From NCBI RefSeq assembly GCF_001552655.1, contig NZ_BCRP01000001.1:248001-312000 (forward strand): a DNA stretch of 64,000 nucleotides, written 5' to 3'. The position numbers were made by a program, and so were the translations under genes. Positions 43,229-63,626 of the stretch are shown here, piece by piece (within the stretch, counting starts at the first letter, position 1; the number at the start of each line of letters is the position of its first letter). This stretch comes from Alicyclobacillus kakegawensis NBRC 103104 (GTDB taxonomy: Bacteria; Bacillota; Bacilli; Alicyclobacillales; Alicyclobacillaceae). The notes under the pieces were generated by a model. That model was given only the letters and a program-made list of their open reading frames with translations, was not told the DNA's origin and made no database searches.

Positions 43229-43804
43229 CTATCCGTCGGTCAATCGGCCGGCGTTGCGCTGGGCCTGGCGGAAAATCTGCGCCAGACTCAGCTTTTTCCG
43301 CTCCGGGACCGGCGATGCCTGCGGCTCCGCTGCCGGCGCAGCTGAAGCGGGAGTGGGAAGCGCAGGTTCCACAGCGGATGGAGTCGCGTGGAGCTTATCC
43401 GTGGATGCGACCGGTTCACCCGCGCTGTGCGCATGCGCGGGGTCGGCCGCCTGGGCTGTGGCCGAATGCGGCGCCCCGGACGCCAACTCGCGGACGTCGC
43501 TGGTGGCCGTCCCATCGCTGCCTGGCGAGGCCGCTCCATCGGCGGCCACGGCAGAAGCGGCCGCCGCGGACGAATGAACCTGCGCCTGCGGCGCCTCCGG
43601 GCTGGGCGCCCCGGCGTTCAACTGCTGGCGTCCCAGGTGAGCCGTCACGTATTCCGTAAGAATGTCGACGACACCCTGGCTAAAGTTGCCCTCATCCTTG
43701 AGCCGGTTCAGGTAGTCAATGACCTCGGGCGGTGTTTCGGCCGGGATATAGAGCGTAATGTCCTTGCCAGGACGCACGTAGACGGTAGAGCGGCGCTTTT
43801 TCAA
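43229..43804 (-). CDS. ParR-like DNA-binding protein (RHH type) with long disordered tail
   Basis: The 191-residue protein starts MKKRRSTVYVRPGKDITLYI followed by a helix-rich part (PPEVIDYLNRLKDEGNFSQG, VVDILTEYVTAHLG), a ribbon-helix-helix-like DNA-binding build. Residues ~62-165 are Ala/Pro/Ser/Gly-rich and disordered, and the last ~20 residues form a basic helix (KLSLAQIFRQAQRNAGRL), reminiscent of the ParM-binding C terminus of ParR. The start overlaps the stop of the ParM-like gene by 4 nt (ATGA). I name it ParR-like by build and context; sequence similarity to known ParR was not tested. Confidence 0.65.
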   Translation of the reverse strand: MKKRRSTVYVRPGKDITLYIPAETPPEVIDYLNRLKDEGNFSQGVVDILTEYVTAHLGRQQLNAGAPSPEAPQAQVHSSAAAASAVAADGAASPGSDGTATSDVRELASGAPHSATAQAADPAHAHSAGEPVASTDKLHATPSAVEPALPTPASAAPAAEPQASPVPERKKLSLAQIFRQAQRNAGRLTDG

Positions 43805-45009
43805 CCCGCATCCTTCCCGTCCTTGGCTTCAGCGGCCACTGGCTCTGCCTCCGGCTCTGCGGCGGCCGCGGCTTGCGGCAGGGTTTCGAGGGCGTGGGAG
43901 AGCAGGAGAAAGGTGCCGCGCGCGTTGCGGAACTGACTGTACTCCGCCGCGTCAAAGCGAATCGGTAAGCCTAGCTCCGCGTTCAGCTTTTCTATCCAGG
44001 GCTGCAGCACAATGGCCCCGCCGCCGATGAACCAGAACTCGTTCGCGTAGCGCACGTGTTTCCACGCGTTGCGCGCCGACTTGAGCACCTTTTCTGCCAG
44101 GATGCGCATGTGCCGGTTCACCAGGTTGGTCATGTCGAACACAACTTTGCCCTCGGCGTAGATCTCGTATTCCTTGTGCACCAGCATGTCGGTCAGTTCC
44201 GCTGTGCTCGCTATCAGTTCTTCTCCCTCGGCGTTGACTTCGTTGCGGATGCTTTCCAGGGCGTCGTTCAAGTGGATTTTGGTACCCACAGAGTGCCTCT
44301 GGTCCAGTTCCAATCCAGGCCGGAAGAAAGCGATGTCCATATCCACGCCACCCACGTCGGCGATGCCAAACCCCTTGTGCGACAGCGGCGAATTCGACGT
44401 CGCTTCGATGTCGTAGACGCCGGAGACGTCGTCAATGCCGATGTCCACGGGGAGCGAGAACTCCAGTTCGACAGTCACACCCTTGTAGACCGGCGTCGTC
44501 ACGAACGTGACGGAGTGCACGCCGCTGGTGATCTTGGCGGCAAACTCCGCCCGGAACTTGGCGATCTCGCTGATAGGGAGGCCTGTGCCGAGGTACACGT
44601 GCGCCTTGATTCGGTTCACTCCGGCCCGAATGTCCGCCTCATGCTTGTGCGCGACCGCGTAGGCCGCCCCCGTCAGCAGTGTGACCATAGTCTCCGGTCG
44701 CTGCGCCTTCTTTTGGGCCGCCTTGTCCCCGACAATCTCGTAGACAACCCCCTCGTCCCCAATGGCCAAGTTGCCCACGTAGACGTGGCGGTACTGCTCG
44801 CTTGTGATGGCTGGAGACGTGATGCGAACGTCGAGAAAGTCCAGCGGGTTCCCCTGTTCGGTGAGGAGAAACCGCTCCCCAACCGGCTGGGAGACCACAT
44901 TCGGGAAGATAAAGGCGTTCTCAAGCGTGTCGTAGATTCCCTTGATGTGGCTGCTGCCGTTGTCTATGGACAATGCGATCGTCGTGTTCAGTGCTTGCGA
45001 TTTGGCCAA
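43801..45009 (-). CDS. ParM/StbA-like actin-family ATPase
   Basis: A 402-residue protein of the bacterial actin superfamily. Phosphate-1 motif: ALSIDNGSSHIKG; connecting and phosphate-2: GFGIADVGGVDMDIAFF; adenosine motif: EFWFIGGGAIVLQPWIEKL. The middle (KAHVYLGTGLPISEIAKFRA, VTVELEFSLPVDIG) fits the ParM/Alp group rather than MreB or FtsA. These proteins form filaments that push or pull DNA bound by ParR. The TTG start at 45009 has GGGGAG about 6 nt upstream. It is followed by the ParR-like gene and preceded by AT-rich repeats (45081-45222), matching a parMRC set; the C terminus has an Ala/Glu/Pro tail. Confidence 0.82.
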   Translation of the reverse strand: MAKSQALNTTIALSIDNGSSHIKGIYDTLENAFIFPNVVSQPVGERFLLTEQGNPLDFLDVRITSPAITSEQYRHVYVGNLAIGDEGVVYEIVGDKAAQKKAQRPETMVTLLTGAAYAVAHKHEADIRAGVNRIKAHVYLGTGLPISEIAKFRAEFAAKITSGVHSVTFVTTPVYKGVTVELEFSLPVDIGIDDVSGVYDIEATSNSPLSHKGFGIADVGGVDMDIAFFRPGLELDQRHSVGTKIHLNDALESIRNEVNAEGEELIASTAELTDMLVHKEYEIYAEGKVVFDMTNLVNRHMRILAEKVLKSARNAWKHVRYANEFWFIGGGAIVLQPWIEKLNAELGLPIRFDAAEYSQFRNARGTFLLLSHALETLPQAAAAAEPEAEPVAAEAKDGKDAG

Positions 45010-45047
45010 GTGCGCTCCCCTCTCCAACCCACTGTTCTTACTTTCAC

Positions 45048-45076
45048 AGTATAGGAGATTCTCGTCCACTCGCCAA
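45048..45076 (-). promoter_or_regulatory. Promoter of the parM-parR-like operon
   Basis: On the minus strand TTGGCG (45076-45071) and TATACT (45053-45048) are 17 bp apart. It lies between the repeat block and the TTG start, so repeat-bound ParR-like protein could repress it, as in plasmid parMRC. Confidence 0.55.
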
Positions 45077-45080
45077 CGCA

Positions 45081-45222
45081 CAAATTGAAGCTTTGAACGT
45101 TACACTTCAAACTTTAAATCTTAGAACCCTAGCATGTTGAACTTTAAACTTTACAGTTCAAATGTTAAACCTTAGAGCTTAAGCCATAAGACTTAAACTT
45201 TAACATTTAACCAGCAACCGAG
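45081..45222. repeat. AT-rich degenerate iterons, candidate parC centromere
   Basis: A ~140-bp block that is strikingly AT-rich against its GC-rich surroundings. It contains at least five copies of a ~12-bp unit: TTGAACGTTACA, TTCAAACTTTAA, TTGAACTTTAAA, TTCAAATGTTAA and TTAAACTTTAAC. The copies are mostly on one strand at roughly 12-30 bp spacing. Its place just upstream of the parM-like promoter is where plasmid parC sites lie. Confidence 0.6.
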
Positions 45223-62762: not shown

Positions 62763-63626
62763 TCAGGATTCACCTTCCGCTCCGACCAAGCTGAGGATTC
62801 GTTCGAGGTCCTCGTCCGAAAAATAGTCGATCTCGATTTTCCCCCGCTTCTTGCCCGGTCGTATGCGCACAGAGGTGCCCAGCCGAACGCGGAACTGTTC
62901 TTCGTACCGCTTATAATGGCTTGGCAGCGGCTTTTTATTTCTTGTTTCACGTGAAACAGTGGGACGGTACACGAGCGTTTCCAAAGTCCGCACGCTCAAA
63001 TCTTCCGCCACCACCCGGCGGGCCAGTTCCACCTGCCGCTTCTCATCGGGTACAGCTAACAATGCCCGGGCGTGTCCCATCGACAATGTTCCACGTGAAA
63101 CCAACTCCCGCACCTCCTCGGGAAGCTGCAACAAGCGCAGCATGTTGGCGACGTGAGAACGGCTCTGGCCAACCCGCTTGGCCAATTGTTCCTGCGTCAA
63201 ATGACATTTCTCAATCAGGTTGGCGTACGCCTCCGAAATCTCAATCGCGTTCAGGTCCTCCCGCTGCAAATTCTCAATGACCGCTATCTCCATCAGCTGC
63301 ACATCGGTAAACTCGCGCACCACCGCGGGCACGTCCGTCAGCCCTGCCATCTGAGCGGCCCGGAACCGCCGTTCCCCAGCCACAATGTCGTAACCGCGGA
63401 TGCGGCTGCGGCGAACGATCAACGGCTGAATGATCCCGTGCTCGCGAATGGACTGGGCCAACTCGCCCAACTTATCCTCGTCGAACACCCTGCGCGGCTG
63501 GTACGGGTTCGGCCTCAGGTCCCGGATCGCGACCGTTGACACCTGGTCCTGTTCCGAGATGTTCAGCTCTGGGAGCAGCGCCCCCAACCCCTTCCCCAAA
63601 CCCTTCTGCTGCTTAGTCAATGCCAA
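62763..63626 (-). CDS. parB: Chromosome-partitioning protein ParB (Spo0J)
   Basis: The 287-residue CTPase-type clamp has the N-terminal ParA-activating stretch ([18 protein letters not shown]), box [13 protein letters not shown], box [17 protein letters not shown], the [23 protein letters not shown] and a C-terminal dimer domain. It binds parS sites and loads SMC near the origin. Two parS-type sequences lie within the gene. It overlaps the ParA gene by 14 nt. Confidence 0.97.
62943..62958. promoter_or_regulatory. parS: parS site
   Basis: TGTTTCACGTGAAACA is a perfect 16-bp palindrome equal to the Bacillus parS consensus (TGTTNCACGTGAAACA). It lies inside parB, as in B. subtilis. Confidence 0.95.
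63087..63102. promoter_or_regulatory. parS: Second parS-like site
   Basis: TGTTCCACGTGAAACC differs from the parS consensus only at the last base. It is 144 bp from the perfect site, also inside parB. Confidence 0.8.

Follow-up and report, generated by a model that had tools for sequence, protein, structure and literature searches.

The occurrence of a ParM-like actin gene among core genes of a 64-kb stretch of the Alicyclobacillus kakegawensis genome (hereafter the window) raises the question of whether actin filaments act in the segregation of a bacterial chromosome, or whether the locus is a plasmid remnant or serves some other purpose. The locus lies on the minus strand, where a tandem 7-bp array, a promoter-like site, parM and parR follow one another (Table 1), and a convergent universal-stress gene comes after parR. 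On the 5' side of the array are genes of the rlmH, htrA, yycJ and yycI types, named from their Pfam families and order. A DnaA domain encoded 30 kb away on the same contig places the module on the chromosome among core genes, and the ParB gene is 17.8 kb from it. An earlier note, made from the sequence, had described a chromosomal parMRC-like locus near the origin, about 18 kb from ParABS, and both points hold, the second for ParB. It had also reported an ATGA overlap between the two genes; the start of parR does overlap the stop of parM by four bases, but these are TTGA, and the start codons are TTG. Because rlmH is the next gene, an SCC-like insertion was considered and ruled against: no direct repeat of the rlmH end flanks the module, and a search of the window for 10- or 12-base repeats of the last 24 bases of rlmH gave a single inverted 11-mer, at 40614.

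Table 1. Features of the locus and its context (window coordinates unless a locus is named)
Feature	Position	Strand	Remarks
7-bp tandem array, candidate parC centromere/operator	45084..45217	-	core TWAA/TGAA each 7 bp
-35-like TTGGCG	45071..45076	-	consensus match only; 17-bp spacer to -10
-10-like TATACT	45048..45053	-	consensus match only
parM-like actin gene	43801..45009	-	TTG start, 402 aa; Pfam/PHROG matches, AlphaFold model, orthologues
parR-like adaptor gene	43229..43804	-	TTG start, 191 aa; alignment of 25, model helices
parB/spo0J gene, chromosomal, context	62763..63626	-	Pfam ParB_N, HTH_ParB, ParB_C
Two-part winged-helix third gene, examples in relatives	L034:11638-12096; L041:11683-12144; L047:11675-12133

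The parM product is an actin-fold NTPase closest to ParM/Alp7A, in keeping with the ParM/StbA-like gene of the earlier note. It matched the Pfam families Alp7A_like_C (3e-10), MreB-like_C and ALP_N above cut-off and a PHROG annotated as 'partition protein' (3e-24); its single match among PDB sequences was the chromosomal Dh-cParM1 (E 0.0006). The AlphaFold model (pLDDT 81) was most similar to Alp7A (Z 32.7, 3.1 Å over 344), ahead of BtParM (Z 30.9), Dh-cParM1 (28.9), the CorM filament of Anabaena (9rmi, Z 28.5) and MreB (about 22). The start codon is most likely the TTG at 45009, where homologues also begin and which follows a GGAG-type site; a GTG at 45081 is disfavoured. The residues of what we take to be the nucleotide-site motifs are invariant in 31 aligned ParM rows. 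A search of the same genome with StbA_N (PF06406) gave no match and is uninformative, because its 14 controls also matched nowhere. ParM is under strong purifying selection: dN/dS was 0.029 against A. shizuokensis, with 0.138 for RlmH (part), 0.129 for HtrA and 0.094 for YycJ, and 0.030 against A. herbarius (dS 2.0, near saturation), with 0.102-0.134 for neighbouring genes. The ParM reading frame of a Gordonibacillus (L057:10001-11178) is interrupted, by decay or by a sequencing error.

The parR product has two conserved ends. In an alignment of 25 adaptors, residues 1-55 are shared (a basic start, a strand-like stretch and then two helices), as is a C-terminal tip of the type F-S-L-x-x-I-F-R-Q-A-x-R-N-x-G-K-L, whose helix spans about residues 171-190 in the window protein; the linker that joins them varies in length and sequence. 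The dN between the window adaptor and that of A. shizuokensis follows this division (0.024 in the N-terminal part, 0.264 in the linker and 0 in the tip). The linker had been thought unusually long; its variability between conserved ends is confirmed, but its length is usual in the family, where adaptors measure 120-200 aa (150-390 aa in the sister clade with 8-bp repeats described below). The model contains helices at 26-38, 41-63 and 174-185, and the ribbon strand is not formed in the monomer; in the ribbon-helix-helix fold this strand forms between two chains. The adaptor found no match in Pfam, NCBIfam, PHROG or PDB sequences, nor did its model with Foldseek. We regard a ribbon-helix-helix fold of the modelled N-terminal part as likely, short of proven because the ribbon strand is absent from the model and Foldseek returned nothing. 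The adaptor of A. ferrooxydans (L058:11209-11625) has an altered C-terminal tip and looks frameshifted, again by decay or sequencing error.

The third component is DNA. The array block is 69% AT in a window of 37%, and its base autocorrelation peaks at lag 7 (z 7.3) with a second signal at lag 8 (z 4.3), neither value being equalled in 1000 mononucleotide shuffles; TRF gave no report of it. The upstream regions of the window locus and 33 others together contain 285 T[AGT]AA pairs at spacing 7, where dinucleotide shuffles give 11.8, and harmonics appear at 14 and 21. The count exceeded all 100 shuffles in 32 of the 34 loci, the exceptions being L048 (2 pairs, maximum 4) and L050 (2 pairs, maximum 2); the L048 array scores 31.6 on a matrix of six array units, and the array of the L050 genome matches at 3e-7. 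This matrix, which was trained on the same arrays that it scores, reached 25 in 29 loci (the others being L028 with 17.4, L050 with 21.3, L029 with 21.9, L041 with 24.6 and the window with 24.9) and nowhere in 713,701 bp of DNA flanking these loci and the window. A Paenibacillus array, used as query, had matches (E up to 0.1) in 35 of 38 genomes. These were immediately upstream of parM, save one on contig C36 of the window's own genome (G000:C36, 4e-7), discussed below, and four short ones (24-30 bp; G052, G060, G062 and G102; E 0.006-0.04). The genomes without a match were G018, G057 and G064. For the latter two this reflects the limits of that query, because their arrays (L048, and L056 with 36.6) score well on the matrix; G018, outside the set of 34, does carry a regular 7-bp array (score 40.1), which is some 600 bp upstream of parM and away from the promoter. 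It also holds a weak array-like match (G018:C1:3844276-3844317, E 0.09) about 3.4 kb from parM, possibly another array block, and in L041, L058 and L030 the array upstream of parM consists of several blocks spread over 400-600 bp.

In the window, the promoter-like site stands between array and parM. A match of equal stringency occurs in 10 of the 33 other loci, six of them at a different place, so that conservation of this promoter is unsupported. A repeat array beside the operon promoter, as in parC of type II systems, is nevertheless present, and by its sequence it is a candidate centromere. The operator- or centromere-like element first noticed here is thus borne out, and its AT-rich repeats are conserved across the 34 loci; they are 7-mers in direct succession, with 8-mers in the sister clade, and not the long iterons once supposed.

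Besides the window, 33 loci from Alicyclobacillus and the Paenibacillus group encode an actin 75-98% identical to that of the window. The nearest named relative is A. shizuokensis (ParM 98%, adaptor 74%, other compared neighbour proteins 86-95%). Three or more flanking proteins are common to the window and only L028, L029, L030 and L059, the other 29 loci having zero or one in common with it; single-linkage clustering of the flanking genes chained unrelated contexts and was used solely for this direct sharing. A sister clade (L010-L017), with ParM 43-46% identical to the 7-bp type, has the same operon order, arrays with a best lag of 8 bp in all eight loci (base identity 0.48-0.68) and an adaptor tip of the type D-P-I-A-L-L-R-Q-Q-R-R/K-A-W-V or a variant. 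Array, adaptor and actin have therefore diverged as a set. One or the other ParM type occurs in 17 of 41 Alicyclobacillaceae genomes, and the module in 24 of 104 genomes of one Paenibacillus-side family; among 398 genomes drawn across the phylum, the window's own genome alone matched at 1e-40. The module is accessory, and many relatives therefore manage without it. ParM-positive Alicyclobacillaceae genomes are larger (17 vs 24 genomes, p = 0.0002; p = 0.0007 without three incomplete genomes; neither value corrected for relatedness), which would fit a need for the module in larger chromosomes.

Proximity to the origin recurs in both families. The distance from parM to dnaA is 30, 30, 34, 36, 38, 76 and 104 kb in seven of the nine Alicyclobacillus of the 7-bp type (the genes are on separate contigs in two), 46-145 kb in 19 of 29 members of the Paenibacillus group (separate contigs in ten) and 36, 61, 62, 70, 93 and 547 kb in six of the eight sister-clade loci; draft genomes bias such values short, because both genes must share a contig. 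On contigs of at least 4 Mb (11 genomes) the distances are 36, 62, 65, 68, 70, 72, 76, 86, 93, 104 and 547 kb, four of them (62, 70, 86 and 93 kb) on the assumption that the contig is a closed circle. ParM is accordingly 36-104 kb from dnaA in 10 of these 11 chromosomes, and the value of 547 kb belongs to one sister-clade genome. By an arithmetic estimate, a random position would fall so near dnaA with a chance of about 2-4% per genome, the genomes being related and their positions not independent trials. Orientation is shared as well: in 29 of 32 measured genomes parM lies upstream of dnaA and is directed away from it, the others being G018 and G020 (downstream, towards dnaA) and G004 (downstream, pointing away). 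Distant ParM paralogues (25-30% identity) served as a control and lie 933 kb (G056), 402 kb (G024) and 1259 kb (G030) from dnaA, with two more on contigs that are probably plasmids. Among 22 Paenibacillus-group genomes that have a distant paralogue, it is on the dnaA contig only in G056, a single contig, and the main parM is on that contig in 16 of 26 genomes of the group. An inherited, slowly changing position near the origin would look much like repeated selection.

Taken together, these results suggest that the locus is probably a functional chromosomal type II (actin) partition module, acting at one origin-linked centromere. We infer DNA binding, autoregulation, filament formation and an action on the origin region. 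The adaptor would dimerise through its N-terminal ribbon-helix-helix part and bind the 7-bp array cooperatively, repressing the promoter just downstream and forming a centromere complex with the array; its C-terminal tip, held on a flexible linker, would capture the ends of ParM filaments, and ATP-driven filaments could then act on the array-bearing region near the origin by moving, separating or anchoring it. The module is not the sole segregation system, because a chromosomal ParB is also present, and it would work alongside the normal ParB-based system.

A rather unlikely alternative is that a plasmid partition operon was caught in the chromosome and kept for autoregulation, for incompatibility against incoming plasmids or by transfer, with no chromosomal role. 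A domesticated plasmid module had indeed been suggested earlier, and its best trace may be a third gene found in relatives of the window. This gene, predicted to encode a two-part winged-helix protein of 152-153 aa, occurs in 26 of 33 loci, in 25 of them directly behind parR (in A. pomorum it lies 1.1 kb further on). Three examples gave weak but recurrent matches to replication initiators and related loaders (best PHROG E 3e-9 to 1e-8); in Pfam, two match HTH_36 and the third no family. The sequence thus hints at a plasmid or phage past, to which the patchy distribution within families could be added. The gene was not found in the window or in loci L028, L029, L048, L050, L053, L055 and L059. 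In a collection of 72,556 plasmid records it has no close version (two records, 32% over 45%), the adaptor has no match, and ParM matches 27 records, all below 60% identity (24-31% among the matches listed). The module is therefore not a plasmid ParMRC, since it lies on the dnaA contig and no plasmid copy exceeds 60% identity, and the domestication proposed earlier keeps its initiator-like gene but has found no close plasmid version. ParM likewise had no match in the phage collection, and no integrase, transposase or relaxase family was detected among twenty flanking genes in six genomes (four genes had no family at all). The constraint on ParM (dN/dS of 0.029) and the maintained origin proximity also speak against a relic. 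Another contig of the same genome (G000:C37, L071, 1-13325) is plasmid-like and carries a second ParM, 28% identical, together with genes for an EAL protein, a secreted-looking protein of 1923 aa and an HNH protein with an RRXRR piece, which we take to be reminiscent of IscB.

Transfer between the two families is the remaining point in favour of such a relic. Compared with Paenibacillus V4I3, the window's genome shows 79-81% identity in ParM but 59% in DnaA, 39% in DnaN, 71% in GyrB and 67% in GyrA (proteins named from Pfam). ParM resembles its Paenibacillus counterparts (75-85%) as closely as those of distant Alicyclobacillus (79-81%), whereas GyrB and GyrA are closer in A. mengziensis (83% and 80%) than in Paenibacillus. 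The ParM tree, which leaves out the interrupted L057 and reaches the sister clade over a very long branch, groups the 25 Paenibacillus rows in a single clade (97/95) and does not resolve the Alicyclobacillus sequences. One inter-family transfer is plausible on these sequences, and unusually slow change would fit the pattern equally.

That the actin shapes the cell or anchors a cargo other than DNA seems improbable. Such repurposing has a precedent in FcmB/FcmC, which arose from a partition system integrated into the chromosome and govern cell form in a filamentous cyanobacterium, according to the parts of the report used here (PMC12645912), and the CorM filament is a structural neighbour of our model. 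However, in both clades the module comes with a DNA array, the period of this array shifts along with the adaptor, and the ribbon-helix-helix-like part of the adaptor is under strong constraint.

The array is also found on what may be an extrachromosomal element. Contig G000:C36 (L070, 1-16197; 16,197 bp) is tectivirus-like. Its type-B DNA polymerase has 18 phage relatives (28-30% identity among the matches listed), including Rhodococcus phage Toil, Streptomyces phage Forthebois and Microbacterium phage Badulia, which we take to be tectiviruses; its ATPase is terminase-like (PHROG 7.5e-22, Pfam FtsK just below cut-off), an SSB is matched (PHROG 4e-6, Pfam phi29 SSB below cut-off), and LysM and SLT proteins are encoded. 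The label capsid-like for a further protein comes from look and place alone: it had no database match, a virus scan gave 600 pattern matches with no relative confirmed, the phage collection gave none, and PDB sequences gave one chance-like match only. No terminal inverted repeat was found in the contig. At 262-310 it carries seven contiguous heptads of the chromosomal type (matrix score 49). A relative in A. shizuokensis (G022:C66), with a 98% identical capsid-like protein, has six (score 32), its array differing by one unit fewer, one substitution and a few extra edge bases. The parts read of two distant relatives, G029 (40 of 55.6 kb; a host with 8-bp arrays) and G005 (18.9 of 42.9 kb), contained neither a 7-bp array nor a regular 8-bp one. 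An array-like 19-mer was found in 40 IMG/VR stretches, none of which matched ParM, ParR or proteins of the element, and two whose ORFs were inspected by eye resemble phages of other bacteria; a 7-bp repeat on a virus is therefore not specific in itself. Strikingly regular 7-bp TTTAAAG/CTTTAAA arrays were seen in the IMG/VR viral contigs L081, L078, L084 and L091, in which relatives of ParM, ParR and the element were not found. Hitch-hiking of C36 on the host ParMR is a possibility that its array suggests. The converse, that the chromosomal array is an operator only and that the system serves plasmids or viruses in trans, would account for the heptads on both elements, but is very improbable, since the module is conserved in many genomes in which no such element was found (the capsid-like protein was matched in four of 41 Alicyclobacillaceae genomes) and origin proximity would be left unexplained.

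We thus return to a chromosomal partition module as the preferred reading. In its boldest form, an actin segrosome would act on the origin in parallel with ParABS, through a true chromosomal parC made of 7- or 8-bp arrays that co-evolve with the adaptor and stay within about 100-150 kb of oriC in both families; the tectivirus-like element would carry a copy of this centromere to ride host filaments. Taken as a whole, this is a tentative proposal that we hold possible but rather unlikely. A role of actin filaments in moving or anchoring a bacterial chromosome is a possibility that this system is suited to test: it offers a defined array, a position linked to the origin in both families, species that naturally have or lack the module, and perhaps a viral parasite.

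The closest known systems are the chromosomal ParMs described in 2025 (Ali et al. 2025, PMC12270681). As presented in the parts of that paper used here, cParMR is known from Desulfitobacterium, Clostridium botulinum, Moorella, Bacillus tropicus and others, and Dh-cParM1 forms filaments. Like the present module, these systems combine a chromosomal ParM with a ParR-like ribbon-helix-helix protein nearby, coexist with ParA/ParB genes and are highly conserved in some genera; unlike them, the window actin is only about 20% identical, and the parC of C. botulinum consists of palindromic repeats. The text of the paper has no match for 'Alicyclobacillus' or 'rlmH', and its abstract and sections 4, 5, 8 and 13 name no Paenibacillus case, 7- or 8-bp array or origin linkage. 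Our literature search found no report of the present Alicyclobacillus locus; a parM is mentioned on a plasmid of A. acidoterrestris in the relevant part of PMC9713406. Alp7A and BtParM, Bacillus plasmid actins, are the best structural matches and share the Alp7A C-terminal Pfam family, but they are plasmid-borne and also about 20% identical. The closest parallel for the DNA is the delta/omega/parS system of pSM19035, in which, in the account available to us (PMC9499535), a ribbon-helix-helix adaptor binds contiguous 7-bp repeats that overlap promoters and needs four or more of them. The viral arrays, with six and seven, exceed this minimum, and the window array is longer and less regular; the motor of pSM19035, however, is a ParA and not an actin, and its repeat (WATCACW) is dissimilar. 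FcmB/FcmC and CorM (PDB 9rmi) are also ParM-type chromosomal actins, and FcmB has a downstream partner annotated as ParR, but FcmB and FcmC set cell shape and no DNA array is mentioned for them in the passages drawn on (PMC12645912). Set against these systems, what is new here is the lineage, a candidate centromere whose repeat length co-varies with its partners, the linkage to the origin, the initiator-like third gene and the virus-borne array.
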